From Vitreoscilla filiformis (lineage in GTDB: Bacteria > Pseudomonadota > Gammaproteobacteria > Burkholderiales > Burkholderiaceae_C), in the NCBI RefSeq assembly GCF_002222655.1, contig NZ_CP022423.1, positions 2,108,001 to 2,172,000 of the forward strand: DNA of 64,000 nucleotides. The letters run 5' to 3'. The notes beneath the pieces were generated by a model, which worked only from the letters and a program-made list of their open reading frames with translations, searched no databases and had not been told where the DNA came from. Positions 16,071 through 60,899 of this stretch are shown piece by piece (position 1 is the stretch's first letter; every line of letters begins with the position of its first letter). Made by a program: the position numbers and the translations under genes.

Positions 16071-16310
16071 GGCTACCGTAAAAATAACCGGCGGCTTTTG
16101 GGGACGTCGGGTTGATTGCCCTGTGTGCGCCCAGCATGGGCGTGAGCTTATAGGGTGGAAGTCCCCTGTGGGAGTACCGGCCTGGGCGCGAAGAGCGAGC
16201 AGGACAACCCCTCTTTAGCCCCTGTGGTAGTGCGAACCGTCCACTGCGGACCCGCACGGTGGGTGGTGTGGGAGCTGGGAGCTAAAGACCCCCGGCTACC
16301 CGATTAGGCC
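16071..16310 (-). repeat. attC-like site 1, split by group II intron 1
   Basis: On the plus strand, GGCTACCGTAAA leads into an imperfect inverted repeat (AATAACC paired with GGTTGATT, with one extra G in the right arm). This ends in CCTGT at 16124. The intron occupies 16125-16304, and TAGGCC resumes at 16305. Joining the exons gives the core GTTAGGC. The extra base in the 3' arm shows that the plus strand is the attC bottom strand, so the cassettes point left, as their genes do. The arms are shorter and less perfect than in sites 2, 3 and 5. Confidence 0.65.
16125..16304 (+). mobile_element. Group II intron remnant 1 (180 bp)
   Basis: It starts GTGCGCCCAGCATGGGCG, the same 5' end as introns 2, 3 and 6, and keeps about 77 bases of domain I. 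An internal deletion then joins it to the 3' end. At 16237-16266 a hairpin CCGTCCAC/GTGGGTGG fits domain V. At 16269-16301 a stem GGGAGCTGGG/CCCGGCTACCC leaves A16298 bulged 7 nt from the end, as expected for the domain VI branch point. It ends GAT and has no protein gene. Confidence 0.8.
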
Positions 16311-16696
16311 TCATTCGGCTTGGTGCCGCGCATGATTTCGTGCATTTTGGAGGCCTCGTAATGCCGCGTGATCATGTTAACTAGCGCGCTCTTGCTCTGA
16401 CGCTTCGAGTAAGTCAATCTAAGTCGATCGGCTAGTTCAGACAAATTGGCAACAGTAAAGGCTTCTTCGTCAGATAGCAGAAACGTTTCGATTTCTGCAG
16501 GTGACATGGAAGAGAGGCGCGACTCAACGTCCGTCGGGAGTTCGCGCCGTGTCCGAGGTGACTGATCTTTCCCCTCGTCGAGTCCTGGAATGAGTCCCCG
16601 CAGCTGTGATCGAGTTGAGTCAAGTTCGGTGTTCGGTAGTTGTCGTAGCAACTTGGCCAAGAGTTCTAGGTGCCGAGCAAATTCATGAGTCTTCAT
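16304..16696 (-). CDS. Cassette protein, probable DNA-binding partner of the ParA-like ATPase
   Basis: A 130-residue hydrophilic protein; I do not recognise a named family. The C-terminal part (about residues 85-128: LSELADRLRLTYSKRQSKSALVNMITRHYE) has the helix-extension-helix look of SAP-type DNA-binding modules. It starts 8 bases after the ParA-like gene, so the two are co-expressed. Its stop codon TAA lies in the attC core (GGCCTAA), a frequent arrangement in integron cassettes. By analogy with other ParA operons it could bind DNA and stimulate the ATPase, but this is inference. Confidence 0.7.
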   Translation of the reverse strand: MKTHEFARHLELLAKLLRQLPNTELDSTRSQLRGLIPGLDEGKDQSPRTRRELPTDVESRLSSMSPAEIETFLLSDEEAFTVANLSELADRLRLTYSKRQSKSALVNMITRHYEASKMHEIMRGTKPNEA

Positions 16697-16704
16697 TTTG
16701 TGAC

Positions 16705-17646
16705 CTAGACGATCCGCGTGAAGAATTCATCAGCCACTTTTCCCATGTATGTCGCCTGCTTCTCAGCATTGCCTTGCGCTCTGGGCAAATCGCTGAACGC
16801 AAATACTGGGAGGTTGACTTGCGCTGCGGCTGACATTCCGTCGCCATCAGTGATGTAGTTTTGGAAGAGTGCGGTCGCGCCAAGTTGGCCAGCGGTTGAC
16901 GTCATGATTTGTTTATGACCGTCCTTGGGACCCCCGCCATACTCATCAACCATGTTGAAAATGATTCCGCCAAACTTTGTATCTGTGTACACGCCGGGCA
17001 ACCCCGCGTAAGCCCACATGGAACGGTAATCATTGTTAAACTGATTCATGTACTTGGTAATCTGAGAGATACCAACTGTGGACAAGAAGTCTGGGATGGC
17101 TGGCACGACATAGTAATCGCTTGCGAAGAATGCGTTCTGAGTCACTAGATTCACATTCGGTGGACAGTCAAGTAGCACGTAGTCGTAGTCGTCGGCGACT
17201 GCATCAATGATATTCCTGATCACAGAGAGTTTTTCGATCTCGAACCGAGTCTCTTCGCGGTGGTCCTTTCCTGACCGCTTCTCTCGCGCGAGCTTCATGT
17301 CAAGGAGAGTGAGTTCTTGGTGCGAAAGAACGATGCCAACCTGCGTGAATTTCTTTCCAGCTCGGGCCCGAACCTGCTTCTCTAGGATTACGTCTTTTGC
17401 GTTGATGTGCGCGCGATCAAAGTAGGCGTCGAACACGGTCTTGAGCGTAGCGCCTGAATTCTTGTATGTGTGATCTACGTAAGCGGACAGACCTACTGCA
17501 AGGAAAGACAGATTGCATTGAGCATCAAGATCGATGAGCAAGACTCGTTTTGAATGCCTCGACGTTAGCCCAGCTGCGAGGTGAAGCGTCAGGGAAGTCT
17601 TTCCGACGCCACCCTTCCAATTGATCATGCTGACTACGATGGGCAT
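16705..17646 (-). CDS. ParA/Soj-family ATPase in an attC cassette
   Basis: A 313-residue Walker-type ATPase. The deviant Walker A motif is INWKGGVGKTSLTLHLA near residues 8-24, motif A' is VLLIDLDAQCNLS, and Walker B is YDYVLLDCPPNVNLV near residue 155. ParA proteins use ATP-driven dimerisation to segregate plasmids or position complexes. Here it sits in an integron-type cassette with a small co-transcribed gene and no plasmid replication gene. Codon use is less GC-biased than in the chromosomal neighbours, so it was acquired. The role could be element stability or defence; nothing in the sequence decides. Confidence 0.85.
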   Translation of the reverse strand: MPIVVSMINWKGGVGKTSLTLHLAAGLTSRHSKRVLLIDLDAQCNLSFLAVGLSAYVDHTYKNSGATLKTVFDAYFDRAHINAKDVILEKQVRARAGKKFTQVGIVLSHQELTLLDMKLAREKRSGKDHREETRFEIEKLSVIRNIIDAVADDYDYVLLDCPPNVNLVTQNAFFASDYYVVPAIPDFLSTVGISQITKYMNQFNNDYRSMWAYAGLPGVYTDTKFGGIIFNMVDEYGGGPKDGHKQIMTSTAGQLGATALFQNYITDGDGMSAAAQVNLPVFAFSDLPRAQGNAEKQATYMGKVADEFFTRIV

Positions 17647-17703
17647 TGCCTCTCCTTGATTTGGAGTTTAGACCTTAGACGGACGGATTATGGCGGAATA
17701 TGT

Positions 17704-17786
17704 GGCCTAACGTAAAGTTTACTTGCGGCGCCAAAAGTGCGCGCCGGAGGCGCGAACTTTGGGTGACATCAGGTGCAACGGCCCGT
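17704..17786 (-). repeat. attC-like site 2 (right core GCCTAAC), split by intron 2
   Basis: The plus strand begins GGCCTAACGTAAAG, then GTTTACTTGCGGCGCC. After a central hairpin comes GGGTGACATCAGGTGCAACGGCCCGT, which abuts intron 2. The arms GTTTACTTG and CAGGTGCAAC pair with one extra base on the right side, the asymmetry typical of attC. Read on the minus strand, the core is GTTAGGCC. This matches the complement of GGCCTAA at the far end of the ParA cassette (16304-16310), as required for one cassette. Confidence 0.8.
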
Positions 17787-18401
17787 GTGCGCCCAGCATG
17801 GGCGTGAGCTTATGGGGTGGAAGTCCCCTGTGGGAGTACCGGCCTGGGCGCGAAGAGCGAGCAGGACAACCACGAGTCGAGGGCAAGGGCGTCGCTGCGA
17901 GGCGACGAACAGAAACCACATAGAGGAGGCCTAGGACGCCAGACGAGCCGGCACTGGATGGCGAAGTCTGATGGTACAGCGTCTAGGGTAGATGTGGCGT
18001 TTGTGCACCGACAGTTCACGTTCTCACCTGGGGAGATCTGCACCACGGGCGGTGGGCAAGGAGTGAGCAAATTCCCGGATGGGATGACACCGGGTCACCA
18101 ACGTCCAAGTGCTGCGAGGGCTGCCCCTTGCTTGTCGAAGAAAAAGGCAGCGGCTCACAACGTGCTCACAGCGTGGCGGGTGGAGACATCTGACGTGATG
18201 GTGCAGAAGTCAGCAGAGGCCATAGTAGTGAACCGTAGCCCCACAAGGGTGAAGGGCATGAAGGGCCGAACACATGAAAGGAGAGACTCGTGAAAGCTCG
18301 TTGCTTGGTGGTGATGCCCGATCGGGCGAATCAAGCGCGGCGCCACTAGGGAAATTCGATATCCAGCAGGGTGATCCCTCTTTAGCTCCCAGCTCCCCGG
18401 T
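17787..18401 (+). mobile_element. Group II intron remnant 2 (about 615 bp)
   Basis: It begins GTGCGCCCAGCATGGGCGTGAGC and runs through domains I-III and the first codons of the reverse transcriptase before it breaks down near 18300. The expected domain V/VI 3' end is missing. Instead 18376-18399 contains the reverse complement of domain VI (TCTTTAGCTCCCAGCTCCC), showing an inversion or a second inverted fragment. It ends at the TATGCC core of the next cassette boundary (18402-18407). Confidence 0.75.
18198..18293 (+). pseudogene. Start of group II intron reverse transcriptase, truncated
   Basis: The 31 codons MVQKSAEAIVVNRSPTRVKG and onward resemble the N-terminal leader of bacterial group II intron reverse transcriptases (compare MEQKS at 60423 in intron 6). 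No RT palm motif such as YADD follows, so the protein is lost in this copy. Confidence 0.6.
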
Positions 18402-18408
18402 TATGCCA
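18400..18408 (-). repeat. Cassette boundary core of the toxin-antitoxin cassette
   Basis: The plus strand GGTTATGCC is the exact complement partner of GGCATAAC at 19130-19137. This is the expected relation between the two ends of one integron cassette, and it defines the toxin-antitoxin cassette as about 18401-19137. Confidence 0.7.
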
Positions 18409-18412
18409 TATT

Positions 18413-18766
18413 TTATGATGACTCATCTTTCGTGATTTTTGCAAGTGTTGCGGCTTTTTCAGTCATTCGTGTCACGGCAGATTTGTAAACGATACTATCT
18501 TCTCGTTTGTCTACCGACATTACCATGACGATCAATTTATCGTCTTCAACTGCATAAACAAGTCGAACTCCTTGTTTGTTGAGCTTTATCTTGTAGCAAC
18601 CTTTCAACTCTCCGTGTAACTCGCCAACGGGAGTGTGTGGATTATCGAGCCTTTTTGCGAGTAGTTTTTTTATGTTTTCTTTAACTGAACCATCAAGCGC
18701 TTTCCACTCCGTTAGTGCTTGTGGTAAAAAGAAAAGTTTATATGTGTGCTTTTTAGAGGTCGTCAA
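18413..18766 (-). CDS. RelE/StbE-family toxin in an attC cassette
   Basis: A 117-residue toxin of the RelE/ParE superfamily. It has the core patterns LFFLPQALTEWKALDGSVKENIKKLLAKRL and HGELKGCYKIKLNKQGVRLVYAVEDD, ending in IVMVMSVDKRE. RelE-type toxins are ribosome-dependent mRNA nucleases, blocked by the antitoxin encoded just upstream. The start overlaps the antitoxin gene by 14 bases. It is close to the StbE/RelE toxins common in Vibrio and other integron arrays, where they help stabilise cassettes. Local composition is AT-rich relative to the chromosome. Confidence 0.88.
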   Translation of the reverse strand: MTTSKKHTYKLFFLPQALTEWKALDGSVKENIKKLLAKRLDNPHTPVGELHGELKGCYKIKLNKQGVRLVYAVEDDKLIVMVMSVDKREDSIVYKSAVTRMTEKAATLAKITKDESS

Positions 18767-19007
18767 GATTAACCTCTATAGCGCTCGATTTATCTGCAAG
18801 TCGCGCTAGTACTTTTTTATATAAATCTTGATCGGAAATTTCTTCCATGATTGCCTCGAAAAGCTCTGGTTTAATCATGTAAAAAGCAGCTTTATTGTGA
18901 TTTAAAACTGCTACCGGTCGGTTATTGGCTTCTCGCAGAATTGCTGCCGGGTTCTTTTTGAACTCAGACATGCTGACCGCTACGTCTGCTAGGATTAGTT
19001 GCATCAT
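18753..19007 (-). CDS. StbD/Phd-YefM-type antitoxin
   Basis: An 84-residue antitoxin. The N-terminal Phd/YefM DNA-binding fold is seen in ADVAVSMSEFKKNPAAILREANNRPVAVLNHN. The acidic C-terminus (SSAIEVNLDDL) would wrap the toxin. It normally represses its own promoter. ATG 19007 lies after TTAGGAG, a good ribosome site. It precedes the toxin gene with a 14-base overlap, the standard order. Confidence 0.9.
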   Translation of the reverse strand: MMQLILADVAVSMSEFKKNPAAILREANNRPVAVLNHNKAAFYMIKPELFEAIMEEISDQDLYKKVLARLADKSSAIEVNLDDL

Positions 19008-19129
19008 TTAACTCCTAAATTGGTGTCAAATATAGCTCTAAATTTAGAGCTTGTCAATCCATGTTGTGTATGCAATGAATTTAAAGCACCTGAATTATTT
19101 GATAATTTCCGGTGAACGAAGAATTAAAT

Positions 19130-19210
19130 GGCATAACGTAAAGGTAAACTGCGGCACGCAAACCCACAGCGAAGCGCCGGGTTTGCGTGACGTCAGTTTG
19201 ACCGGCCCGT
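19130..19210 (-). repeat. attC-like site 3, split by intron 3
   Basis: It begins GGCATAACGTAAAGGTAAACTGCGGCACGCAAACCC and ends GGGTTTGCGTGACGTCAGTTTGACCGGCCCGT. Outer arms GGTAAACTG and CAGTTTGACC pair with one unpaired base on the right; inner arms CACGCAAACCC and GGGTTTGCGTG pair perfectly. Core, arm lengths and shared TGCGG/GTGACGTCAG blocks match sites 2 and 5. Confidence 0.85.
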
Positions 19211-19495
19211 GTGCGCCCAGCATGGGCGTGAGCTTATGGGGTGGAATTCCCCTGTGGGAGTACCGGCCTGGACGCGAAGAGCGAGCAAGACAACCACGAG
19301 TCGAGGGCAAGGGCGTCGCTGCGAGGCGGGGTCTGGAGGAAGCCCCGTAGACAAGAGGTGCGAGGCGATGAATAGAAACCACACAAAGGAAGCCTAGGAC
19401 GCGAAACGAGCCGGCACGAAATGGCGAATTTTGATGGTGCAGCGTCTAGGGTAGACGCGGCGCTTGTGCATCGACAGTTCACGTTCTTACCTGGT
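19211..19495 (+). mobile_element. Group II intron remnant 3, 5' part only
   Basis: It starts GTGCGCCCAGCATGGGCG and stays close to intron 6 until TTCTTACCTGG near 19495, where similarity stops abruptly. The 3' half, including reverse transcriptase and domains V-VI, is absent, so this copy cannot splice. About 65 bases of unassigned AT-rich sequence separate it from the next gene. Confidence 0.8.
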
Positions 19496-19559
19496 GTATT
19501 AAATGGTTTTTTAACGATCGTTTGTAGAAATTGAATAGCATAACTTCGCGTTTACTCGC

Positions 19560-20367
19560 TCAAGCGACGTCGCGCTGAAGGTCTGCGGGGCGCTCTGGTG
19601 AGAGTTCAGCGGGCAGATGCAAAACCTCAACGGCAGAGAACAGGGCATGCAGCATCCGGCTGTACTGCCCGATCACCAGCAAGAACGAGAGCAGCCACAA
19701 AACGCCGTTGGCAACCACCAGCAGACCCATGCTGCTACCCTGAACCCCCAAGGTTCCTTCGATCAAAGACAGGGTCATCACCAAGCCAATCAGGCCAACG
19801 GCGCCACCCAGCGCCCGCCCGGTTCGCCACAAATTCAACCGATCCTTGAGTTCTTCGAGCAGACCGGATTCGGCCCGTTCGAGACAGAAGGCGGTGATTT
19901 TGGCCATGATCGAGGTGTAGTAATACTTGGTGGTCACCCATTGCTGATAACGGGTCGAAAAAATCGAGCCTTGTGCCAAGGAGGCTAAATGCGCTTGGGT
20001 CTGCTGGGACGAGCTTTTAACAATGAATTGATAAACGGTTTGGTAATTGTTTCGGGTGATGTACTGCTTAAAAATATAAATTTCAACGGGGGAAAAAAAT
20101 AGAAGGGCTGATGGCATCGATCAGCAGCCCCGTTGAAAAAATAATGATCACCCCGATGGCGGAAACCGAGTTCGAGGATAAATCGGTCAAGAACTCGAAC
20201 TGGGCGCCACTCAGCGAAGACTTGAGACTTTCAAAAGACTTTAAAGCATCTGCAATGAAATGCTGGGAGCCCATCGAAGAAAGGCTGAAAAAGACGATGA
20301 GCAGCATGCCTGCCCAAAAAAGTCCACCGATGATGGCATATTCCGCGTAGCGCTCCCAGATTTTCAT
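19560..20367 (-). pseudogene. Four-span membrane protein gene with a frameshift
   Basis: Two overlapping frames together give one protein of about 268 residues. Frame one (20367-20083) begins MKIWERYAEYAIIGGLFWAG and ends in GLLIDAISPSIFF. Frame two continues VEIYIFKQYITRNNYQTVYQ through two more membrane segments to 19560. The frames join if one base is removed from the T7C5 run (plus strand 20088-20099). The order WERYAEYAIIGGLFW with GLLIDAI and a downstream EIYIFKQ helix is a pattern I associate with unnamed membrane proteins of Proteobacteria. It is either a natural 1-base insertion or a sequencing error. Confidence 0.6.
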
Positions 20368-20720
20368 GATGGGGTGGGGGTCGTGGTGGGTTCAGGTGAA
20401 GATTTGAGTGCAGGGTCGGTGGGGGTCGAAGGGCGGAAAATCAAAGCCAATCCACTGCCGATGACACACCCTGCGGCACTGCCCACACCCGGGAAAACAA
20501 ACGTGCCAACGGTGGCGCCCGCCAAACAACTGGCCGTCAAGCGGGCCGTGAGGCTGTTTTCTGTGGGGGCGGATGGAGGGGCTTTGGCGCCGTCGTCGGG
20601 GAGTGGGCTTTCTTGGGCGTGGCTCAGCGGTGCAACGCTTAAAACCAAACCCAGCAGGCCCGTTTGGAGGCCCATCCGCAGGCGTGGATAAATAATTTCT
20701 TTTTCCATGGCTAAACCCAT
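20364..20720 (-). CDS. Secreted or membrane-anchored small hypothetical protein
   Basis: A 118-residue protein from ATG 20720 (or 114 from ATG 20708). It has a signal-like segment (MGLQTGLLGLVLSVAPLSHA) with likely cleavage at SHA/QE, then a hydrophobic Gly/Ala-rich segment (LAGATVGTFVFPGVGSAAGCVIGSG) like a glycine-zipper membrane stretch, and a Pro/Thr-rich tail. The end overlaps the next gene by 4 bases, and its start overlaps the DUF2788-like gene stop. Function unknown. Confidence 0.5.
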   Translation of the reverse strand: MGLAMEKEIIYPRLRMGLQTGLLGLVLSVAPLSHAQESPLPDDGAKAPPSAPTENSLTARLTASCLAGATVGTFVFPGVGSAAGCVIGSGLALIFRPSTPTDPALKSSPEPTTTPTPS

Positions 20721-20938
20721 CATTCCACAATGCCGGACATGAACATCTTGATGATGCCCTTGGCCGCAAAACCCAGCAGCCCCACCCCCAGCCCCAGGAA
20801 CAGAACAAACGTCCCAAATTTCCCGGCCTTCGATTCTCTGGCCAACTGGATGATGATGAATACCATGTACAGCATGAAGGCGGTGACACCGACCGTCATG
20901 CCAAACCAAGCGACTTGTTCTTCTGTGATTCCATTCAT
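20720..20938 (-). CDS. DUF2788-like two-span membrane protein
   Basis: A 72-residue protein with two spans: VGVTAFMLYMVFIIIQLA, then KAGKFGTFVLFLGLGVGLLGFAAKGII. The central SKAGKFGTFVLFLGLG resembles the small DUF2788 family of beta- and gammaproteobacteria. ATG 20938 lies one base from the preceding stop. Function of the family is unknown. Confidence 0.65.
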   Translation of the reverse strand: MNGITEEQVAWFGMTVGVTAFMLYMVFIIIQLARESKAGKFGTFVLFLGLGVGLLGFAAKGIIKMFMSGIVE

Positions 20939-21113
20939 TCAGTTTCGCTCCGCCGGCCCGCTGGCGGCGACGGTGTCTTGGTAAGCATGCCAACTGGCAT
21001 GTGCGATCCAAGGCACGGTCAACACCAATCCAAGCAGCATGAGGGCCATTCCCAATAACGTCAGGCCCATGATCAAAACGGCCCACAAGGCCATCGGCAC
21101 AGGATGTTCCATC
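20939..21113 (-). pseudogene. C-terminal fragment of a DUF2189-like membrane protein
   Basis: The last 57 residues starting at MEHPVPMALWAVLIMGLTLL and ending in WIAHASWHAYQDTVAAS resemble the C-terminus of DUF2189 membrane proteins, which end in a HATWHAY-type motif. The usual N-terminal 200 residues are absent. A different frame upstream (from ATG 21241, MSHRLTEHALQESRLFGMRR) stops at the junction, suggesting two unrelated pieces joined by deletion. A short intact protein from ATG 21113 or 21106 cannot be excluded. Confidence 0.5.
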
Positions 21114-21263
21114 ACCACGTGCCAACTGGTGCCAGCACCCAACCGGTTCCGGCCAGTGGGAAGAAACCGCCGAACACCACCAGCCGGCGCATGCCGAAAA
21201 GGCGTGATTCCTGGAGGGCATGTTCGGTCAAGCGGTGGGACATGATGCGCAATCCTGGCTGTT

Positions 21264-23906: not shown

Positions 23907-23916
23907 CGCCGCGCAC

Positions 23917-34271: not shown

Positions 34272-35735
34272 TTAACCCGAAGTCCCTGTCGATGCCCGTG
34301 GCAGGTGGATGACCACGCGCAGGCCGTGTGGATGCACGTCGTGCAGGTGTACCGTGCCGGCGTGGCGTTCCACAATTTCCTTGACGATGGCCAGGCCCAG
34401 CCCGCAGCCCAGCGTGTCGGGGGAGAAGCGCACGAAACGCTCGAACACCTGGGGCTTGGCTTCGTCGGCAATGCCGGGGCCGGTGTCTTCGACCACCAGC
34501 GTGGCACGGGGGCGGCCCCCCGGTTCGGCATCGGCGTAGGCGCGCACCGTCACCTGGCTGCCGCTGCCGGCGTAGCGCAAGGCGTTGTCGATCACGTTGC
34601 TGAGGGCCTCGCGCAGCAGCAGCGGGATGGCGTGGACATACACGGGTAGCGTGTCGTCGCCATCACTGTCGCTGCCATCGTGGGTGTGACCGTAGCCCAG
34701 GTCGATGCGGGCTTGCAGGGCACGCGGCACCAGTTCGGCGGTGACATCCCGGGCCAACGCCGCCAGATCCAACCGCACATGGGCTTGGCGCGTGGCCGAT
34801 TCGGGGTCGGCGCGGGCCAGCGTCAGCAACTGGTTGACGAGGTGGGCGCTGCGCACGGCGCATTCTTGAACCCGTTGCAGGCGCTGGCGCTGGTCGGTGG
34901 TGGCGGCGTCGGCCAGTGCCAGTTCGGTTTGGGTTTTCAGGCCGGCCAGCGGCGTGCGCAGTTGGTGTGCGGCGTCGCTGATGAAGCGCTTTTGGGCGGT
35001 GACGCTGCGTTCCACTCGTGCCAGCAAATGGTTGATGGCGTGGGCCAGGGCGCGCACTTCCTCGGGGGCGGCGTCCAGTTCGATGGGGGTCAAATCGGTG
35101 GCGTTACGCCCTTCGACCACGTTGCGCATCCGGTTGAGCGGGGCCAGCCCAGCGCGCACCCCCGCCCACACGATGAGACTCAGCAGCAGCATCAACGCCG
35201 ACAGCGGCAACATCGTGTCTTCCAAAATGCGCCGCGCCACCTGTTCGCGGTTGGCGCTGGAACGGGCGACTTGCACCAACATCGTTTGCATCGGGCCGAG
35301 TTCGTCGCCGTAGCTCAGCAGCAGGGCGACGATGCGCACAGGTTCTTGGGCAATGTGGCTGTCAAACAAAAACGGCACGCCCAATTGCAGCCGATCGAGG
35401 GGCGGATCGGGCAGGTTGCGGTTGCCCAGGATGAACTGCCCCGGCGGGGTGCTCACCATGTAGAGCAGGCGATCTTGCGGATCGGCTTCAAGGATGTCTT
35501 GGGCGGCACGCGGGAAATCGATATAAAGCCCGTTGCCCACGGGCTTGACCTGGCGGGCCAGTGCCCGGGCCGATTGCAGCAGGCTGGCGTCGATGGCCTC
35601 GTTGGCGTAGCGCGTGGCCAGATTGAAGGTGAAAACGGCGCCAGCGAGCCACAGCACCACCTGGGGCACCAGCACCCACACCAGCAGCAAGCGACGCAGC
35701 GAGCGGGCACCGGGCAGGGTGGCAAACCGGGCCAT
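34272..35735 (-). CDS. TctE/QseC-like sensor histidine kinase
   Basis: A 487-residue kinase with an N-terminal span at about residues 18-38, a periplasmic sensor with the TctE-N look (PDPPLDRLQLGVPFLFDSH), and a second span near 165-185. The HisKA box holds the His in FISDAAHQLRTPLAGLKTQTE, and the ATPase domain has VEDTGPGIADEAK and GCGLGLAIVKEI. ATG 35735 gives a proper membrane N-terminus; the longer frame overlaps the regulator gene. It follows the regulator and precedes gtsA, a place comparable to gltR/gtrS beside gts in Pseudomonas. Confidence 0.88.
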   Translation of the reverse strand: MARFATLPGARSLRRLLLVWVLVPQVVLWLAGAVFTFNLATRYANEAIDASLLQSARALARQVKPVGNGLYIDFPRAAQDILEADPQDRLLYMVSTPPGQFILGNRNLPDPPLDRLQLGVPFLFDSHIAQEPVRIVALLLSYGDELGPMQTMLVQVARSSANREQVARRILEDTMLPLSALMLLLSLIVWAGVRAGLAPLNRMRNVVEGRNATDLTPIELDAAPEEVRALAHAINHLLARVERSVTAQKRFISDAAHQLRTPLAGLKTQTELALADAATTDQRQRLQRVQECAVRSAHLVNQLLTLARADPESATRQAHVRLDLAALARDVTAELVPRALQARIDLGYGHTHDGSDSDGDDTLPVYVHAIPLLLREALSNVIDNALRYAGSGSQVTVRAYADAEPGGRPRATLVVEDTGPGIADEAKPQVFERFVRFSPDTLGCGLGLAIVKEIVERHAGTVHLHDVHPHGLRVVIHLPRASTGTSG

Positions 35736-52390: not shown

Positions 52391-52408
52391 GGTGTTGACT
52401 CCTTACCC

Positions 52409-52693: not shown

Positions 52694-52731
52694 GTCGAAT
52701 CCTTGTGTGTTCTACGGTTCTTTGAACAGGT

Positions 52732-53013
52732 TCAGTGCAGCTCGGTGATGTGGAACACCAGACCTTTGCCGTTGCGCGCAGGCGCCAAAAATCCGGCAAA
52801 GGTGGCCAATGCCCCCAACTCGAAACGCTCCACCACGCTCACCAAATCGCCGATGACCACGGCACGCAGCTCCAGGGAGACTTTGCGCGGCTGGCCGTTT
52901 TGGCTCACGGTGCTGTCGGATTGCAGGCGCAGATCAAGCGCAGGCAGTCCGGCTGGGGTGTAACGCTTGGCACCACGCTCCTGAACGCTGGCGCTCAGAA
53001 GCAACTGGTTCAT
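52732..53013 (-). CDS. priB: Primosomal replication protein N
   Basis: A 93-residue OB-fold protein that binds single-stranded DNA and works with PriA in replication restart. The position between rpsF and rpsR is the classic beta/gammaproteobacterial arrangement. Visible pattern: LDLRLQSDSTVSQNGQPRKVSLELRAVVIG, with the usual C-terminal HITE. Confidence 0.93.
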   Translation of the reverse strand: MNQLLLSASVQERGAKRYTPAGLPALDLRLQSDSTVSQNGQPRKVSLELRAVVIGDLVSVVERFELGALATFAGFLAPARNGKGLVFHITELH

Positions 53014-53039
53014 GCGAGCTTTACGTCACGCAAGCGGGT

Positions 53040-53411
53040 TTAAGCCGCTTCTTGCTGGGCAGCGGCCTTACGGGCCTCTTCCTTTTCCACCGACTTCATC
53101 ATGACGGAGGGGCTGGTTTCAGCCTTTTCCAGCTTGACGGTCAGGTGGCGCAGCACGGCGTCGTTGAAGCGGAAGCCGGTTTCCAGCTCGGCCAGCACTT
53201 CCTTCGAGCACTCGATGTTCAGGCACAGGTAATGTGCCTTGGCCAGCTTCTGGATCAGGTAAGCCAGTTGACGACGGCCCCAATCTTCAACGCGGTGGAC
53301 TTTGCCACCGCCGTTGGTCACCAGGGTCTTGTAACGCTCCAGCATGGCCGGAACCTGTTCGCTTTGATCCGGGTGGATCAGCAGAACGATTTCGTAGTGA
53401 CGCATGAACAC
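53040..53411 (-). CDS. rpsF: 30S ribosomal protein S6
   Basis: A 123-residue S6 beginning [21 protein letters not shown] (ATG 53405 within the frame; ATG 53411 gives two more residues). The RNA-binding core includes [25 protein letters not shown]. It is first in the operon with priB, rpsR and rplI and is preceded by GGAGTG. Confidence 0.97.
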
Positions 53412-53486
53412 TCCTTTTGGGTTCCAAATGGAAGTCGCTCCGCGCGTCGATGCGGAAGCGACAAGGGAAAGCCGACCATTATGGCA

Positions 53487-53512
53487 CGTAAAAGCGGCCC
53501 GTAGGCCGCTTT
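53487..53512 (-). terminator. Terminator after ppsA
   Basis: On the minus strand AAGCGGCC pairs with GGCCGCTT around a 4-base loop, followed by TTTACG. It lies just past the ppsA stop and before the rpsF promoter region. Confidence 0.75.
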
Positions 53513-53545
53513 AGATGTGCTGCATGACGCAGCAGGCGGAGAGGA

Positions 53546-55945
53546 TCAGTCGCGCTGAGCCAGCAGCGTCCAGGTGTCGATCACCGTGTCCGGGTTGAGC
53601 GAGATGGACACGATGCCTTCAGCGGCCAGCCATTGGGCGAAGTCCGGGTGGTCGCTGGGGCCTTGGCCGCAGATGCCGACGTACTTGCCCGTCGCACGGC
53701 AGGCGGCGATGGCGCGGCTGATGAGGGCCCGCACTGCCGGGTCACGCTCGTCAAAATCGGCGGCCAGCAGCTCCATGCCGGAGTCACGATCCAGGCCCAG
53801 GGTGAGCTGGGTCAGGTCGTTCGAGCCAATCGACATGCCGTCGAAGTGTTCCAGGAACTGATCGGCCAGGATGGCGTTGCTCGGCACTTCGCACATCATG
53901 ATGACGCGCAGGCCGTCTTGGCCGCGCTTCAGGCCACGATCCGCCAACATGCCGACCACGCGCTCGGCTTGGCTCACGGTGCGCACGAAGGGCACCATGA
54001 TTTCGACGTTGGTCAGACCCATGTCCGAACGCACGCGCTTCAAGGCTTCACATTCCATGGCGAAGGCTTCGCCGAAGTCTGCGCTGATGTAACGCGACGC
54101 GCCACGGAAGCCCAGCATCGGGTTTTCTTCGTCCGGCTCGTAGCGGCTGCCGCCGATCAGCTTCTTGTACTCGTTCGACTTGAAGTCCGAGAGGCGCACG
54201 ATCACCGGCTTGGGCCAGAAGGACGCCGCGATGGTGGCAATGCCTTCGGCCAGCTTGTCCACGTAGAACGCACGCGGCGAGGCGTGGCCACGCGCCACCG
54301 ATTCCACCGCCTTCTTCAGATCAGCACCGACGTTCGGGTAGTCCAAGATGGCCTTGGGGTGGACGCCGATGTTGTTGTTGATGATGAACTCCAAGCGGGC
54401 CAGGCCCACGCCCGAGTTCGGCAACTGCGCGAAGTTGAAAGCCAACTGCGGGTTGCCCACGTTCATCATGATCTTCACCGGGCAGTACGGCAGCTCACCC
54501 CGGCTGACTTCGCTCACCTCGGTTTCCAGCAAGCCGTCGTAGACGTAGCCGGTGTCCCCTTCCGAGCACACCACGGTCACCAAGGCGCCGTCGGCCAGGG
54601 TTTCGGTGGCGTCACCGCAACCGACCACGGCAGGGATGCCCAGCTCGCGGGCGATGATGGCCGCGTGGCAGGTGCGCCCGCCCCGGTTGGTGACGATGGC
54701 GCTGGCGCGCTTCATCACCGGCTCCCAGTTCGGGTCGGTCATGTCGGTGACGAGCACGTCACCCGGTTGCACGCGCTCCATCTCGGCAATCGAGCTGACC
54801 AGGCGCACCGGGCCGGTGCCGATCTTCTGGCCAATGGCGCGGCCTTCGGCCAGCACCGTGCTGGTGCCCTTCAACTTGAAGCGCTGCTCCACTTGGCCTT
54901 CGGCCTGGCTGCGCACAGTTTCCGGGCGGGCTTGCAGGATGTAGAGCTTGCCGTCCACCCCGTCCTTGCCCCACTCGATGTCCATCGGCCGGCCGTAGTG
55001 CTTCTCGATGATGAGGGCGTATTGGGCCAGCTCGGTCACGTCCGCATCGTTGAGCGAGTAGCGGTTGCGCAGCTCGGGCGGGGTGTCCACGGTCTTGACC
55101 AGCTTGCCGCTGGCGGCCTTTTCTTCCGGCGTGGCGAACTCCATGCGGATCAGCTTGGAGCCCAGCGTGCGGCGGATCACGGCCAGCTTGCCGGCTTGCA
55201 GCATCGGCTTGTGGACGTAGAACTCGTCCGGGTTCACGGCGCCTTGCACCACGGTTTCACCCAGGCCGTAGCTGGCGGTGATGAACACCACGTCCTTGAA
55301 GCCGGATTCGGTGTCGATGGTGAACATCACGCCGGCGGCGCCCACGTCCGAACGCACCATGCGTTGCACACCCGCCGACAACGCCACTTCCGAGTGCGAG
55401 AAGCCCTTGTGGACGCGGTAGCTGATGGCCCGGTCGTTGTAGAGCGACGCGAACACTTCCTTCATCTTGTGCAGCACGTCCTCGATGCCGACCACGTTCA
55501 GGAAGGTTTCTTGCTGGCCGGCGAACGAGGCGTCGGGCAAGTCTTCGGCGGTGGCGGAGGAGCGCACGGCCCAGCTCGCGCCGGGCGAACCGGCTTCGAC
55601 GCGCTGGAATTCGGCGCGCACGGCGGCTTCAAAATCAGCCGGGAACGGGGCGTCGATCACCCATTGGCGGATTTCGGCGCCAGCTTCGGCCAGGGCGCGC
55701 ACGTCTTCGGTGTCGAGAGCGTCCAGGCGGGCGTTGATCTTCTCAGTCAGGCCGCCGTGGTTCAGGAATTCGCGGAAAGCGTGGGCCGTGGTGGCGAAAC
55801 CACCGGGCACGCGCACGCCGGCTTCCGCCAGTTGGCTGATCATTTCGCCGAGGCTGGCGTTCTTGCCGCCGACGATTTCCACGTCGGTCATGCGCAGGTG
55901 CTCGAAGGGGGCGACCAGCGCGGTGGCCAGGTTGCTAGAGGACAT
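53546..55945 (-). CDS. ppsA: Phosphoenolpyruvate synthase
   Basis: A 799-residue enzyme that makes PEP from pyruvate and ATP, releasing AMP, for gluconeogenesis. The ATP-grasp domain has [18 protein letters not shown] and [25 protein letters not shown]. The phosphohistidine domain has the catalytic His in [20 protein letters not shown]. The C-terminal barrel has GFRGASRYI and [19 protein letters not shown] 55945 (MSSSN) follows AAGGAG; the frame upstream is spurious. It is divergent from its regulator ppsR. Confidence 0.96.
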
Positions 55946-56258
55946 GGGAAGGCTCCTTGATGACAAAAAATCAGGAGCATCAGTCGTCAGATCACGGACT
56001 CCCGGGGCAGGTTGGCCACCACCAGCCTGGGCGCTCGGGCCGCAGACGCGCACACGCACGCAGCCCTGCCGGGGCTTGTTGTTCGAGTTGTTGGCAGGTT
56101 GCTTGCATGGGGGAGGTCGGGGAGTGGGCGCCAAAGCGGCGCAACATGACGAAAAGCTGATGCAATGGGCGCGATTCTAAGGACGAATTGCGTACCATCA
56201 CTGAAAGCTTGCTGAAACTTGACATCGTTTTTTCACCGATTGAAACCCTGAAATTTGT

Positions 56259-57083
56259 ATGCCCAACCGTTCTGTTTTCTACGTCTCCGATGGCACTGGC
56301 ATCACCGCCGAAACGTTCGGCAACTCGATCCTGGCGCAGTTCGCTGCCAAGCCGCGCCATGTGCGCCGCCCCTTCATCGACTCGGTGGAGAAGGCGGACA
56401 AGCTGGTCTCCGAGATCAACGAGACCTTCGAGCAAGAGGGGCGGCGCCCGATCGTGTTCCTCACCTTGGCGAACACCGAGATCCGCAATGTGCTGACCGG
56501 CCCGCGCTGCAAGGCCATGGTGATGGACATGCTGCAAGCCTTCATCGAGCCGCTGGAGGAAGAGTTCGGCATGAAGTCGAACCACCGCGTTGGGCGCTTT
56601 TCGGACGTGGCCAAGAGCCAGGAGTACAGCGACCGCATCGAGGCCATCAACTTCAGCTTGGCGCACGATGATGGGCAATCGGCCAAGAACTTGGCGATGG
56701 CGGATGTCATCTTGGTGGGGGTGAGCCGCTGCGGCAAAACGCCGACGTCGCTTTACTTGGCGATGCAGCATGGCATCAAGGCCGCGAACTACCCGCTGAT
56801 TCCGGACGATTTCGAGCGCAGCCAACTGCCCAGCGCACTGACAGCGCACAAGCGCAAGTGCTTTGGCCTCACCATCGACCCGGATCGGCTGTGCCAAATC
56901 CGCAACGAGCGCCGGCCAGGCAGCAAGTACGCCGCGCTGGAAAACTGCCGCTACGAGGTGAACGAAGCTGAGGCGATGATGAAACGCGCCGGCATTTCGT
57001 GGCTGAGTTCGACGCACAAGTCGATCGAAGAAATCGCCACCACCATCCTGCGGGACATTCGGCCGGATCGGTTGATTTACTGA
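56259..57083 (+). CDS. ppsR: PEP synthase regulatory kinase/phosphorylase
   Basis: A 274-residue DUF299 protein that inactivates PEP synthase by ADP-dependent phosphorylation and reactivates it by phosphorolysis. The N-terminus is MPNRSVFYVSDGTGITAETF, and the P-loop-like site is VGVSRCGKTPTSLYLAM. It is divergent from ppsA with about 310 bases between the starts, which hold both promoters. The second accessory island begins about 30 bases after its stop. Confidence 0.95.
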   Translation: MPNRSVFYVSDGTGITAETFGNSILAQFAAKPRHVRRPFIDSVEKADKLVSEINETFEQEGRRPIVFLTLANTEIRNVLTGPRCKAMVMDMLQAFIEPLEEEFGMKSNHRVGRFSDVAKSQEYSDRIEAINFSLAHDDGQSAKNLAMADVILVGVSRCGKTPTSLYLAMQHGIKAANYPLIPDDFERSQLPSALTAHKRKCFGLTIDPDRLCQIRNERRPGSKYAALENCRYEVNEAEAMMKRAGISWLSSTHKSIEEIATTILRDIRPDRLIY

Positions 57084-57114
57084 GTTTGCTGGGCTTGCGC
57101 CCTTTTGACCAGCT

Positions 57115-57500
57115 GTGTGCTTGGCCACGCTGCGCGCTGTGGGTGGGCAGCTCCCCGCAGCGCTTGGACGTTGGTGACCCGGTGTCATCCCATCCGGGAC
57201 TTGCTCACCGCATGTGGTGCAGACCTCCCCAGTTGAGAGTGTGAACTGTCGATGCACAAGCGCCGCGTCTACCCTAGACGCTGTACCATCAAATTCGCCA
57301 TCTCGTGCCGGCTTGTTTCGCGTCCTAGGCTTCCTTTATGTGGTTTCTGTCCGTCGCCTCGCACCTCTTGTCTACGGCTTCCTCCAGACCCCGCCTCGCA
57401 GCGACGCCCTTGCCCTCGACTCGTGGTTGTCCTGCTCGCTCTCCGAGTCCAGGCCGGTGCTCCCACAGGGGACTTTCACCCCATAAGCTCACTGCATACC
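57115..57500 (-). mobile_element. Group II intron remnant 4, inverted
   Basis: On the minus strand this matches intron 6 from GTGAGCTTATGGGGTG through GACAACCACGAGTCGAGGGC to CAACGTCCAAGCGCTGCGGGGAGCTGCCC. The first bases that form the 5' hairpin are lost, and the 3' part with reverse transcriptase and domains V-VI is missing. It ends just after ppsR. It is the only intron copy on the minus strand. Confidence 0.8.
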
Positions 57501-57580
57501 GAGCTGTCAACCTGATGTCACGCAAACCCGGTGCTTCGCTTTGTGTTTGCGTGGTGCTGTTTGCTTCTGCGGTCAGTGCC
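57501..57580 (+). repeat. Degenerate attC-like site 4
   Basis: CTGTCAACCTGATGTCACGCAAACCCGG and GTTTGCGTGGTGCTGTTTGCTTCTGCGGTCAGTGCC mirror site 3 in reverse complement. The inner arms CACGCAAACCC and GTTTGCGTG still pair. The terminal core GTCAGTGCC has drifted from GTTATGCC. It is on the opposite strand to sites 1-3 and 5, like the intron beside it. Confidence 0.65.
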
Positions 57581-57638
57581 TGAAAAAATCCTTCCACAGT
57601 GGCAAGCTACAAGCGCCACAACATTTAGAGAGTGATAA

Positions 57639-57977
57639 ATGTCCGAACAAAAATTTTCCGAAGCATATTCCGATGATGGCTTTTGGAACAAAGTCAAAGG
57701 TTATGCAAAAGTGGCTGGGGAAAACGTATTGGAACCAGCGCTAAAAATGTACTACGCCGCGATGGACTCAGATACGCCGGTTTGGGCGAAGACGACAATT
57801 ATTGCCTCCCTTGGCTATTTTATATCGCCAGTTGATGCGGTTCCAGATGTTGTGCCAATCGTTGGTTATACAGACGATCTTGGCGTTTTGTGTGCGGCGC
57901 TCGCAACGACAGCAGCACACATCAAGGAGGCTCACGTACAGCAAGCAAAGGAAACCTTGAAGCAGTGGCTCTCCTGA
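57639..57977 (+). CDS. YkvA-family (DUF1232) membrane protein
   Basis: A 112-residue protein with the DUF1232 core WAKTTIIASLGYFISPVDAVPDVVPIVGYTDDLGVLCAAL, in which DAVPDxxPxxGYxDD is the family motif. These proteins are small membrane-associated factors of unknown function, often in mobile or cassette DNA. The gene is AT-richer than the chromosome and follows attC-like site 4 in the same orientation, so it is probably cassette cargo. No attC site of its own is seen after it. Confidence 0.85.
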   Translation: MSEQKFSEAYSDDGFWNKVKGYAKVAGENVLEPALKMYYAAMDSDTPVWAKTTIIASLGYFISPVDAVPDVVPIVGYTDDLGVLCAALATTAAHIKEAHVQQAKETLKQWLS

Positions 57978-58169
57978 GAATTAGAAGATATACGGGTGGG
58001 TATAATAAGCTTGAAGTGGCGCATAGCTTGGGCTTGAGGTATTGGCAGTAAGCCTTTCCAATCGATATCAGCGAAAAGACGTGGAACTTTGTTGTGCGTC
58101 TTACCTGACGTTAATTGCAGAAAACAGCCTGTGCAGCGCGCTACTCAGCCCAGCGCTGGCTGGCGCGTG
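57978..58169. other. Unassigned gap in the second island
   Basis: No open frame with family features, attC site or intron part is recognisable here. It separates the YkvA-type gene from IS5-type debris, and any attC of the YkvA cassette has been lost here. Confidence 0.4.
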
Positions 58170-58386
58170 CGGGTGTGTCCTTGCATCTGCTGCCCAATGA
58201 CTTCCCCTTGGTCAACAAGGGGTCAGCAGTGGCGACGCTGTAACGCAGTGGCATGCTGTAAAGCAACTGTGAGAGTGGCCCACACGCGCAGGCTATGACA
58301 GCTACAAGCGCCGCATGGGCAGCAAGGTAGGGGGCGGTGGACACACTTGGGCAGTTGATTGCGCTGACGGTGACTCCAGCCAATGC
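58170..58386 (+). pseudogene. IS5-family transposase fragment
   Basis: Broken frames read LPNDFP, then YDSYKRRMGSKV, then after a frame change AVDTLGQLIALTVTPANA. These segments are characteristic of IS5-group (DDE) transposases. Stops and frame changes show it is inactive. It is joined directly to the 3' end of intron 5, so the IS probably inserted in the intron before decay. Confidence 0.7.
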
Positions 58387-58505
58387 CTGAGCGCAAGAGA
58401 GAAGCGTGCCTCGTCGAGAGCGAACCGACTTGTTGAACCGCCCACTGCGGACCCGCATGGTGGGTGGTGTGGGAGCTGGGGGCTAAAGACCCCCGGCTAC
58501 CCGAT
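58387..58505 (+). mobile_element. Group II intron remnant 5, 3' end only
   Basis: From TGAGCGCAAGAGAGAAGCG it matches the end of intron 6, including the domain V hairpin CCGCCCAC/GTGGGTGG and the domain VI stem with bulged A, ending CTACCCGAT. TAGCC follows, the core of the next cassette. The 5' half is gone, replaced by IS5-type debris. Confidence 0.8.
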
Positions 58506-58527
58506 TAGCCTTGGGTTCTATGTCAAA

Positions 58528-58905
58528 TTAGCAAATTTTTCTACCCCACCAATCACTTTTTTCTGCATATACTATAACAGCACCATTTCTTATTAATAAA
58601 GCATCGGTTTGGTATCCTGTATAAGCGCCATAAGAATTCTTTGCATTTAATGTTGTGCAAACTAGAAATCCATATCGTGGGGTTTCCAAACGACTTCCAA
58701 GCATCATTTTTTTAGGTCTAGAAATTACCTGATATAATGCAGAGTCGGGATCTTTGAGATGGTTTTTATAATATCTTTTAACGATGTCCTCGTGATTTTC
58801 TGGAAATTCACCATAATCTGCATTGGCAATTTGTTCTGGCGTCGGTGGCGTCGTACACCCAGTTGTTAATAAAATAGCAACTAGCATTATAAATAAGCGA
58901 ATCAT
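58528..58905 (-). CDS. Cassette lipoprotein, 125 residues
   Basis: A short lipoprotein signal ends in the lipobox LTTGC, so the mature protein should be lipid-anchored. The rest, with DIVKRYYKNHLKDPDSALYQVI and YGFLVCTTLNAKNSYGAYTGYQ, resembles small secreted proteins often found in gene cassettes and phage-like DNA, with no known activity. It is AT-rich and is the last gene before the attC core on the minus strand. Confidence 0.75.
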   Translation of the reverse strand: MIRLFIMLVAILLTTGCTTPPTPEQIANADYGEFPENHEDIVKRYYKNHLKDPDSALYQVISRPKKMMLGSRLETPRYGFLVCTTLNAKNSYGAYTGYQTDALLIRNGAVIVYAEKSDWWGRKIC

Positions 58906-58918
58906 TTTCTTTTCCTGG

Positions 58919-59332
58919 TTAACTATTGGCGCAAGTTTCTAGCGTTGACATCCATTGACTTAAAACAACATCTCCAGAATTTCCTACTCCAAACCCATTT
59001 ACTAGCGTTTTGTTTTCCATTAATGGGGTGAGATATATTATTGAACCATAAAATAATTGATCCTTAAATGGCGCTGTCCATGCATGATATATTTCTATAC
59101 GTTGTTGTTTGATTAAATATTCAATGTGAGCCGCATTCTTAAAGTCAATGACAGGTTTTTCGGCTAATTTTTCCCAGCACTCGCCCAAAGCAATATATGA
59201 TTTGCTGAGCGTAACATTAGTATACTTGCGTGTTGCGGATGATATTAAATCATCTTTACTAGGCGCTGGAACCGTTATTGCGCAGCTTGACAAAGTCATG
59301 GATAAAAGAAGTAGTGATATTTTGGTATTCAT
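58919..59332 (-). CDS. Cassette lipoprotein, 137 residues
   Basis: The N-terminus MNTKISLLLLSMTLSSCAITVP is a lipoprotein signal with Cys17. I do not recognise the mature domain; it keeps several aromatic residues and two further Cys (ALGECWEKL and ETCANS). It is encoded 13 bases before the next lipoprotein gene, so both are probably co-expressed and may act together in the envelope. Confidence 0.65.
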   Translation of the reverse strand: MNTKISLLLLSMTLSSCAITVPAPSKDDLISSATRKYTNVTLSKSYIALGECWEKLAEKPVIDFKNAAHIEYLIKQQRIEIYHAWTAPFKDQLFYGSIIYLTPLMENKTLVNGFGVGNSGDVVLSQWMSTLETCANS

Positions 59333-59350
59333 GCTAATTTGTATGTTGTG

Positions 59351-59858
59351 TTAAAAATTCTCTGGAATTTCACCTGTATCAACTAACAGCATAAACTGAT
59401 CCTCACTGAGGATCATTACTCCTTGATGTCGCGATTTTTCAATTTTGCTGGGGCCTGCATTATAACCACAACATAAGAAATGCAAATTTTTAGTGACACT
59501 TGGTCGAATAAAAAAGTTGTTCGCTTCTGCTAAGCTAGTTAATCGATCTTTATCCGCCTGCTTGAATCCAGTAAAACATATTTCTAGTTTTCCTGAATCA
59601 TTTGCTTTTCTAAATACAGTTTTTCTTTCCTTTTCAATCGGTGGTGGATTATTGCTTATATGATATGAGAGTCGCGCTTCAACATTAATATTATCATCAA
59701 TATATTCAAGAACTCGATCCTTTCGGAAAGTCCGCAATCCTTGATCTTGCGGGCATATTCCTTGAATGTAGTCAGGTGTTTTGATATATTTTTATATGTC
59801 TGGCTGAAATTCTTCCCTGTGCATCTTTGTATATAAAAGTTAAGATTTCTTGCGTCAT
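59351..59858 (-). pseudogene. BRCT-domain cassette protein with frameshift
   Basis: The C-terminal 75 residues form a BRCT domain (LEICFTGFKQADKDRLTSLAEANNFF, then NLHFLCCGYNAGPSKIEKSRHQG). The N-terminal part starts at ATG 59858 (MTQEILTFIYKDAQGRISAR) but stops after about 29 codons. Removing one base from the T4 run at 59779-59782 joins YQTPDYIQG with LRTFRKDRVLEYID, giving one protein of about 168 residues. I recall similar small-N-terminus plus BRCT proteins as hypothetical cargo. It is either a decayed gene or an assembly error. Confidence 0.7.
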
Positions 59859-59896
59859 GATAATCAAGCTACGTTGGCTTATGAAAATTGTATTTT

Positions 59897-59978
59897 GGCT
59901 AACGTAAAGTTCACCTGCGGCGCCCAAACTGGCGCGCGAAGCGCGGCAGTTTGGGTGACGTCAGGTGCAACGGCCTGT
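59897..59978 (-). repeat. attC-like site 5, split by intron 6
   Basis: GGCTAACGTAAAGTTCACCTGCGGCGCCCAAACTG pairs with CAGTTTGGGTGACGTCAGGTGCAAC, leaving one extra base in the right arm (CACCTG/CAGGTG outer, CCCAAACTG/CAGTTTGGG inner). It ends GGCCTGT, abutting the intron. Read on the minus strand the core is GTTAGCC, matching GGCTAA at 58505-58510 at the other end of the three-gene cassette. Confidence 0.88.
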
Positions 59979-60899
59979 GTGCGCCCAGCATGGGCGTGAG
60001 CTTATGGGGTGGAAGTCCCCTGTGGGAGTACCGGCCTGGACTCGGAGAGCGAGCAGGACAACCACGAGTCGAGGGCAAGGGCGTCGCTGCGAGGCGGGGT
60101 CTGGAGGAAGCCGTAGACAAGAGGTGCGAGGCGACGGACAGAAACCACATAGAGGAGGCCTAGGATGCGAAACGAGCCGGCACTGGATGGCGAAGTCTGA
60201 TGGTACAGCGTCTAGGGTAGACGCGGCGCTTGTGCATCGACAGTTCACACTCTCAACTGGGGAGGTCTGCACCACATGCGGTGAGCAAGTCCCGGATGGG
60301 ATGACACCGTGTCACCAACGTCCAAGCGCTGCGGGGAGCTGCCCCCTGCATGTCGAAAAAGCTGGCAGCGACTCACGAGGAGCGCACAGCGCACAGCGCA
60401 CGGCGTGGCAACACGAGGTGTGATGGAGCAGAAGTCGCAGAGGAGGCTACCGCTTGGGCAAGCTCAGGGAGTGCGTGCGAAGGTGGATGCAGTACTTTGG
60501 GATCAGCCAGTATTGGAGGACTGTGCCGGGGCTAGACGAATGGATCAGAAGGCGGATGCGATCGGTCTACTGGAAACGGTGGAAGGGGAGCAGGACGAAG
60601 ATCCGGGAGTTGTTGAGGCTGGGCGTGAACAGACGCATGGCCTTTAGGCACGGACTGAGTGGCAAGGGGAACTGGCGCATGGCCAGGAGTCCGGGGTTGC
60701 GAATCGCGTTGACAAACGAGAGGTTGCACGAGACGGGCCTGGTGAGTGTGGTGGCCCTATGGAAGAAAGCTCAGGGGTACGCTTGAGCGAGAAAGAGAAG
60801 CGAGCTTCGTCGAGCGAGCCGACTTGTTGAACCGCCCACTGCGGACCCGCATGGTGGGTGGTGTGGGAGCTGGGGGCTAAAGACTCCCGGCTATCCGAT
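59979..60899 (+). mobile_element. Group II intron remnant 6, most complete copy (921 bp)
   Basis: This copy keeps both ends: the start GTGCGCCCAGCATGGGCG and the end with domain V (about 60834-60863) and domain VI, with the bulged A at 60893 and terminal GAT. The inside is deleted: only the first codons and the last about 110 codons of the reverse transcriptase remain. TAGGCC resumes at 60900, restoring GTTAGGC with the TGT before the intron. It might still fold and splice with a maturase supplied in trans. Confidence 0.85.
60423..60786 (+). pseudogene. Group II intron reverse transcriptase, internally deleted
   Basis: A start MEQKSQRRLPLG at 60423 runs straight into the C-terminal maturase domain in another frame, from about 60454: MQYFGISQYWRTVPGLDEWIRRRMRS and KIRELLRLGVNRRMAFRHGL. 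The latter is the domain X (GIIM) signature. All RT palm motifs, including YADD, are missing. The gene cannot make an active enzyme. Confidence 0.85.

Follow-up and report, generated by a model that had tools for sequence, protein, structure and literature searches.

The stretch of 64,000 nucleotides analysed here (the window) raises the question of whether one group II intron family has entered every attC site at the same base, and of how copies of such different lengths came to lie there. Six group II intron copies (w1 to w6) were located in the window, in the places where an earlier reading of the letters alone, the sequence-only reading, had put six copies or fragments of one family, and all belong to a single IIC-attC family. 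The intron copies and cassette parts are as follows (window positions, strand, feature):

16070..16124, + strand, attC remnant adjoining w1 (model R1 40.8 bits)
16125..16304, + strand, intron copy w1 of 180 nt, with both ends and a large deletion, placed in the type B ORF-less lineage
16304..17646, − strand, cassette genes for an unknown protein of 130 aa (no Pfam match) and a ParA-like ATPase of 313 aa
17704..17786, + strand, attC adjoining w2 (R1 86.2 bits, model R2 15.4 bits)
17787..18399 (end placed by eye), + strand, intron copy w2 of the type B ORF-less lineage, with an eroded 3′ end
18413..19007, − strand, cassette with genes for a ParE-like toxin and a Phd/YefM antitoxin
19130..19210, + strand, attC adjoining w3 (R1 89.5 bits, R2 23 bits)
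19211..19494, + strand, intron copy w3, 5′ part only, 93% identical to full-length positions 1-282
57145..57492, − strand, inverted intron copy w4, reduced to its 5′ part, with the first 17 nt eroded
57498..57578, − strand, attC adjoining w4 (R1 26.2 bits; missed by R2)
57639..57977, + strand, cassette gene, DUF1232
58383..58508, + strand, intron copy w5, reduced to the 3′ end with domains V and VI, without attC
58528..59737, − strand, cassette genes for proteins of 125 aa and 137 aa (no PADLOC match) and a third, weakly BRCT-like, just below the Pfam cut-off
59896..59978, + strand, attC adjoining w6 (R1 88.8 bits, R2 23 bits)
59979..60899, + strand, intron copy w6 with both ends, a type A ORF-less form from which most of the reverse transcriptase (RT) frame is deleted

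All six copies had been described as abutting attC, which is the case for five (w1, w2, w3, w4, and w6) and not for w5, where the remaining intron 3′ end is followed by TAGCC and no attC is left. Model R1 recognises five attC sites in the window, all touching an intron; four run straight into an intron 5′ end and the w4 site runs into an eroded one. Model R2 recovers four of these five, together with a weak match at 35108 that was taken as chance, and the w6 attC folds at z −6.9 as DNA. The proposal that excision joins ...TGT to TAGGC holds for w1 and w6, because both of their splice junctions are readable; in w2 and w3 the 5′ junction is CGT, and w3, w4, and w5 are without one end. The cassette genes are opposite in strand to the introns in both window clusters, as had been read. 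Copy w1 aligns with the full-length intron over its 5′ 85 nt and 3′ 71 nt and has a 96-nt stretch in common with i5, a copy elsewhere in the genome, and w2 is 91% identical to i5 across 647 aligned columns, including a segment without counterpart in the full-length intron; domain V and part of VI are gone from the w2 3′ end, with both junctions still readable by eye. Copy w4 is 86% identical to the full-length intron and 97% identical to w6 over 349 nt. Rfam group-II-D1D4-3 matches were obtained for w2, w3, w4, and w6 and not for w1 and w5, from both of which most of that region is missing.

Genome-wide, 16 attC sites were read, of which 13 lead directly into an intron 5′ end, one leads into an eroded end, and two model-recognised sites (2349272 and 1478533) are empty; by eye, an additional attC-like repeat near 2349016, different in sequence type, is empty too. 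The intron occupies nearly, not literally, every attC of the genome: the claimed high occupancy stands, and "every site" holds only nearly because of the two empty ones. Insertion at one attC base by a IIC family is likewise supported, with 14 of the 16 attC sites at an intron 5′ end (one eroded), a test that is partly circular because 10 of the 11 sites in the R1 training set, which includes three of the five window sites, are occupied. R2 was built from relatives' sites only and came out without base pairs; run on loci fetched mainly because they were intron-bearing, it recovered 12 of the 16, the four missed being those of i1, i6, and w4 and the empty one at 1478533. Two weak R1 matches at 14280 and 402409 (E 0.9 and 5.5), in surroundings that look coding by eye, were dropped before the count, and a home-made palindrome scan for attC, being too insensitive or unspecific, was replaced by R1 and R2. 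The comparison with attC in relatives that had been advised found the intron at none of 63 sites (29 loci), 60 of which have an intact GTTRRRY; an R1 match was present in 31 relatives, and loci from 29 were read (G099 and G133 left out). Two of the 29 (G058 and G101) have a fragment related to the intron elsewhere in the genome, and in three same-genus genomes neither the intron (E 1e-20) nor R1 (E 0.001) gave a match.

A search for an intact parental intron, also advised, found seven full-length copies of ~2,010 nt among the 19 places that the family occupies in this one genome. Copies i1, i3, i4, s1, and s2 are identical over their aligned length, i2 has one inserted base, and s3 is 97% identical; the six near-identical copies suggest recent movement, and the several waves of invasion envisaged earlier are supported. 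The RT frame is open in the full-length copies and encodes a group II reverse transcriptase/maturase with RVT_1 and GIIM and no other Pfam domain, for which the best solved match is the GsI-IIC RT (419.7 bits, vs 151.7 bits for LtrA). RF02001 and RF01998, domain I-IV motifs of catalytic group II introns, were matched above the Rfam gathering scores. Failure to place domains V and VI had been named as grounds for refutation; hairpins for both were found in five of the six 3′ ends folded (z −3.4 to −5.7), w1 having only VI; in four loci searched up to E 0.1, no Rfam domain V/VI family matched. A candidate conserved N-terminal RT extension (617-aa frame) was set aside because the first 200 codons contain seven stops in relative G121, though one in G035 and two in a G211 copy. 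An intron match was present in 11 relatives (the second search excluded G183), and seven of eight located intron 5′ ends in relatives are preceded by an attC-like hairpin by eye, and two such hairpins scored 19.2 bits (L081) and 22.7 bits (L099) with R1. None of the 41 pattern matches from a protein search of a contig collection was confirmed as a relative. Introns of this class are known to carry an outward promoter (available portion of PMC8876359), and such an intron-borne promoter was not supported here, the count of promoter-like sites being 0 where shuffled sequence averaged 0.4.

The exon side of the 5′ junctions reads GT/T, and GGAGT/T at s1 and s2, which are identical full-length copies outside attC, sense and in phase within a comM-type and a MerR/B12 gene, and which are recent because they are identical. 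Residence mostly outside attC had been held to count against the attC-targeting claim; two copies lie there, inside genes, and 14 of 16 attC sites are at an intron 5′ end. The sequences before s1, s2, and i6 form no significant hairpin (z 1.3, 0.0, and 0.2), and targeting is therefore not strictly bound to the attC hairpin. Sense insertions in two conserved genes also provide a direct opening for a splicing test.

The copies had been thought decayed to different extents, and deletion ends do vary, for instance among the plainly wrecked w3, w4, w5, and c3, but several short copies have junctions or a segment in common at unrelated sites. In type A (i6 and w6, ~200 kb apart) the internal junction is the same in alignment, in type C (c1 and c2) an internal junction is common to both, and type B (i5, w2, and w1) has a common sequence absent from the full-length intron and found only in this genome among 299 sampled family genomes. 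The 1,200-nt flanks of same-type copies have no common sequence at E 1e-5, save for overlapping neighbour flanks or other attC or intron copies. Three ORF-less types at different attC sites suggest mobilisation in trans, though a tree of the 5′ regions gives support for the type B pair only (91/98). Independent internal deletions of separately inserted full-length introns, with no such mobilisation, would fit the many wrecked copies with variable ends and the observation that c1 and c2 are each nearer to the full-length intron than to one another; this origin is nonetheless improbable in view of the junctions common to i6/w6 and c1/c2, the type B sequence of i5, w2, and w1 amid unrelated flanks, and the presence of that segment in this genome only. 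Gene conversion between copies could instead have spread the deletions, the inserts themselves having been made by full-length introns. Exchange is evident in i6, a mosaic in which the first ~360 nt are nearer to type B i5, its neighbour in the array, than to type A w6 and the rest matches w6, so its type A junction may stem from exchange between copies, and crossing-over is visible among i2, i3, and i4 (below). Three attC sites, however, carry the type B segment or its 3′ edge, one of these sites lies ~240 kb away from the other two, and exchange would therefore need a long reach and nearly the whole intron, which leaves gene conversion a rather doubtful source of the short forms.

The array at 2.35 Mb has identical 688-bp segments between the near-identical introns i2, i3, and i4, that is, a duplicated segment. 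The gene-side flank is common to i3 and i4, whose attC differ, the attC is common to i2 and i3, whose gene-side flanks differ, and one gene in the array now precedes the attC of a neighbour cassette, with both outer junctions still present. The array appears to be the footprint of unequal crossing-over between introns, by which a cassette gene gained a new site. Three near-identical 2-kb introns with identical 688-bp spacers are hard to assemble, yet an assembly artefact is quite unlikely, as i2 has its own one-base insertion and the attC to the right of i4 is unlike those of i2 and i3. The occupancy might also reflect cassette spread rather than many insertions, had an integrase moved intron-loaded cassettes, which carry their own attC along; an integron integrase gene is present at 3371894-3372838, the only TIGR02249 match above the cut-off (469 bits). 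No array was found beside this gene (R1 genome-wide; motif in L017, L018, and L020; by eye), so that the integrase gene and adjacent attC array of a complete integron do not occur together, and the nearest intron or attC is s3, ~36 kb off. The occupied attC sites differ in sequence among themselves, the flanks of same-type copies differ, and the sole duplication ends at introns, not at cassette borders, all of which make spread by the integrase very improbable.

The best explanation, and a probable one, is that a IIC-attC retro-intron has come close to saturating scattered cassette clusters, that its ORF-less forms were moved in trans, and that its copies have served as repeats for crossing-over. 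The full-length intron would splice and retro-move, entering at GT/T, beyond the attC hairpin, in the strand opposite to the cassette genes, with the R″ box therefore split and integrase recombination at that attC presumably lost. The ORF-less forms would most likely be carried to other attC sites by the protein of the full-length intron acting in trans. The introns would then act as identical 2-kb repeats for unequal crossing-over, presumably by RecA, and crossing-over between two of them would double a cassette segment and set a gene before the attC of another cassette. More tentatively, the intron may have replaced the integrase as the shaper of arrays, where insertion marks attC, intron recombination duplicates cassettes, makes mosaics, and re-links genes, and ORF-less miniatures live off the full-length intron.

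How genes first gain attC is an open question in integron biology, and recombination between IIC-attC introns, a proposed answer, would have a readable natural footprint here, in a genome with a seemingly recently active intron; no gene from outside an array joined to attC was seen in this genome. With the ORF-less types, the driver-and-passenger pattern of introns would come to include the IIC-attC group. In the open literature searched, no report was found of attC sites filled to this extent, of ORF-less families among IIC-attC introns, or of an attC swap brought about by introns. The TeI3 introns are not known to be of class IIC or to lie in integrons. In Thermosynechococcus elongatus, ORF-less TeI3 is driven in trans by TeI4 proteins, mobility with the proteins of other introns having been assayed, and common deletion break-points at different sites are read as a single proliferated ORF-less lineage (PMC2882425, in the part available). 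The same sign, a junction or segment repeated at unrelated sites in short copies, is present here for types A, B, and C, type A being weakened by the mosaic i6; unlike TeI3, trans mobility is only inferred here, and exchange between copies is also seen.

According to the accessible text of PMC7923331, group IIC-attC introns of the S.ma.I2 type insert after or into the bottom-strand attC hairpin, in R″, most often at TTGT/T and in the orientation opposite to the cassette genes, and do so in CALINs too. The present family resembles that description in its insertion after the attC hairpin in R″ and in its strand, and differs in its 19 places in one genome, near-saturated attC, ORF-less types, and two intragenic sense insertions. 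A protein relative (54% over 67% of the query) is encoded by the intron beside blaIMP-4 on the Serratia marcescens IncN plasmid NZ_MZ643942; compared by description, there too the cassette gene is on the other strand, with one insertion in the stretch shown. In the model of Leon and Roy (2009), as told in the same accessible text (PMC7923331), a gene becomes linked to another attC when introns undergo homologous recombination. The 2.35-Mb array, where a gene appears to have been joined to another attC through intron recombination, is similar to what that account describes, except that the swap lies inside one array, between two attC-borne introns.

Whole-genome searches of the 3.79 Mb genome (three contigs; window at C1:2108001-2172000 on NZ_CP022423.1) gave 17 matches to the 367-nt 5' part of the intron and 15 to its 91-nt 3' end, together marking 19 places, including all six copies that the sequence-only reading had claimed in the window:

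w1-w6: inside the window
i1-i6: array, 2.351-2.366 Mb
c1-c3: 0.248-0.252 Mb
s1: 1018437
s2: 1193389
s3: 3335802
solitary intron 3' fragment: 346942

The intact parental intron, which the sequence-only reading had suggested looking for elsewhere in the genome, was found as seven full-length copies of ~2,010 nt, which start with GTGCGCCC and end with CCCGAT; five of them show no difference across the aligned length, one additional base in i2 breaks its reading frame, and s3 has 97% identity. The encoded protein carries RVT_1 and GIIM domains, its best solved match is the GsI-IIC RT, and the nearest protein to the RT in a large search has 92% identity over 89% of the query. The ribozyme part matched Rfam RF02001 and RF01998, and domains V and VI both fold in five of the six 3' ends tested, w1 retaining VI only.

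The claim that one intron family occupies every attC-like site at the same base proved real and mostly well read, with 'every' reduced to 'nearly every'. The attC model R1, trained on 11 sites (10 of them occupied), gave 18 genome matches at E up to 10. With the matches at E 0.9 and E 5.5 set aside as weak, 16 remain: 13 continue directly into an intron 5' end, that of w4 continues into an eroded 5' end, and two are empty with GTTRRRY intact. Four of the five matches outside the training set (i3, w1, w4, i6, and 1478533) are occupied, with i3 duplicating i2. The model R2, made from 39 attC sites of relatives only and applied to 11 sources mostly fetched for containing introns, gave 13 matches, namely 11 occupied sites, one empty site, and one taken as chance, and did not find i1, i6, w4, or the empty 1478533 in these sources. 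A repeat that resembles attC but differs in sequence type (AATAAC...GTTATGC; L009 ~3017-3085) is empty by eye and has no R1 or R2 score.

R1 matches occurred in 32 of 299 family genomes, this one included. None of the 63 attC sites (E up to 0.5) from loci of 29 relatives contains an intron, and GTTRRRY is intact in 60 but not in the other three; the contrast with 14/16 occupied sites here (Fisher's exact test, 1e-13) involves sites that are not independent, the own sites having trained R1. Of the 298 other family genomes, 11 have intron matches (E 1e-20), with 1 to 7 per genome in the 10 searched again, several being pieces of one copy. By eye, an attC-like hairpin precedes seven of eight located intron 5' ends in relatives, no clear one preceding that in G211 (L082), and R1 scored two such sites (L081 and L099). 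Also by eye, i6 sits in a damaged attC of another type, and an empty attC of relative G241 (L060:1501-1581) closely resembles the i6 site.

Both s1, inside a MerR/B12-binding regulator gene, and s2, inside a comM-type Mg-chelatase-like gene, lie on the sense strand, and the host domains resume beyond the intron with flanks in phase, as worked out by hand. Since the fold test detected no significant hairpin upstream of s1, s2, and i6, while each of the three further attC sites tested does fold (z -3.7 to -9.1), the intron prefers attC without being bound to it.

The most valuable parts of the finding lie outside the window, namely the intact parent, the shortened types without the RT ORF, and an attC swap. 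Type A (i6 and w6, ~920 nt, ~200 kb apart) has 94% identity and a common internal junction in the alignment. Type B comprises i5, w2, and w1; i5 and w2 have in common a ~170-nt segment that has no match in the full-length intron or in the 298 other family genomes (E 1e-6), occurring among the 299 only at these two places, and w1 has its 3' edge. This segment lies at L010:5898-6065. Type C (c1 and c2) has a common junction at positions 281/1834, and w3 terminates at the same left position. Within each type, no similarity was found between 1,200-nt flanks (E 1e-5), neighbour overlaps and stretches with other attC or intron copies excepted. The simplest reading of these common junctions and segments is mobilisation of the ORF-less types in trans, an argument also used for T. 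elongatus introns (PMC2882425). Counted against trans mobilisation are the mosaic i6 (L010:7514-8433), whose first ~360 nt (the 5' third) resemble its type B neighbour i5 and the rest type A w6; the distances of c1 and c2, each of which is nearer to the full-length intron than to the other copy; and the tree of intron 5' regions, in which the type B pair is the only supported grouping. Intron copies have therefore indeed exchanged sequence, which may have spread some internal junctions.

In gene direction, the 2.35-Mb array reads methylase gene, i2, attC-A, 82-aa gene, i3, attC-A, 82-aa gene, i4, attC-D. Two 688-bp segments are identical, the left flank is common to i3 and i4, and the right flank is common to i2 and i3; the duplicated unit is therefore bounded by introns and not by cassette borders. 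One 82-aa gene copy now precedes the attC of the methylase cassette, and unequal crossing-over between two outer introns would yield both the duplication and the attC swap in one step. Cassettes of this array (L009:3423-5264 and 7572-9562) look like defence genes, namely an Old-type nuclease (PADLOC Old) and a C5-cytosine methylase with a 288-aa uncharacterised gene ahead of it. A TumE-like toxin gene and the HTH protein gene that comes after it (L010:6722-7488) are likely a toxin-antitoxin cassette.

A single gene exceeded the TIGR02249 cut-off (3371894-3372838, named integron integrase), and no array by eye, motif match, or R1 match was found around it; the cassette clusters therefore resemble CALINs. 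This solitary gene (L018:15829-17385) has an in-frame N-terminal extension of ~180 codons ahead of the family match. In gene direction, the first attC box is split by the intron (YTA|AC in most copies) and the last is intact, and the split R'' box probably hinders the integrase. Insertion into R'' has been described for IIC-attC introns (PMC7923331) and corresponds to the box split seen here.
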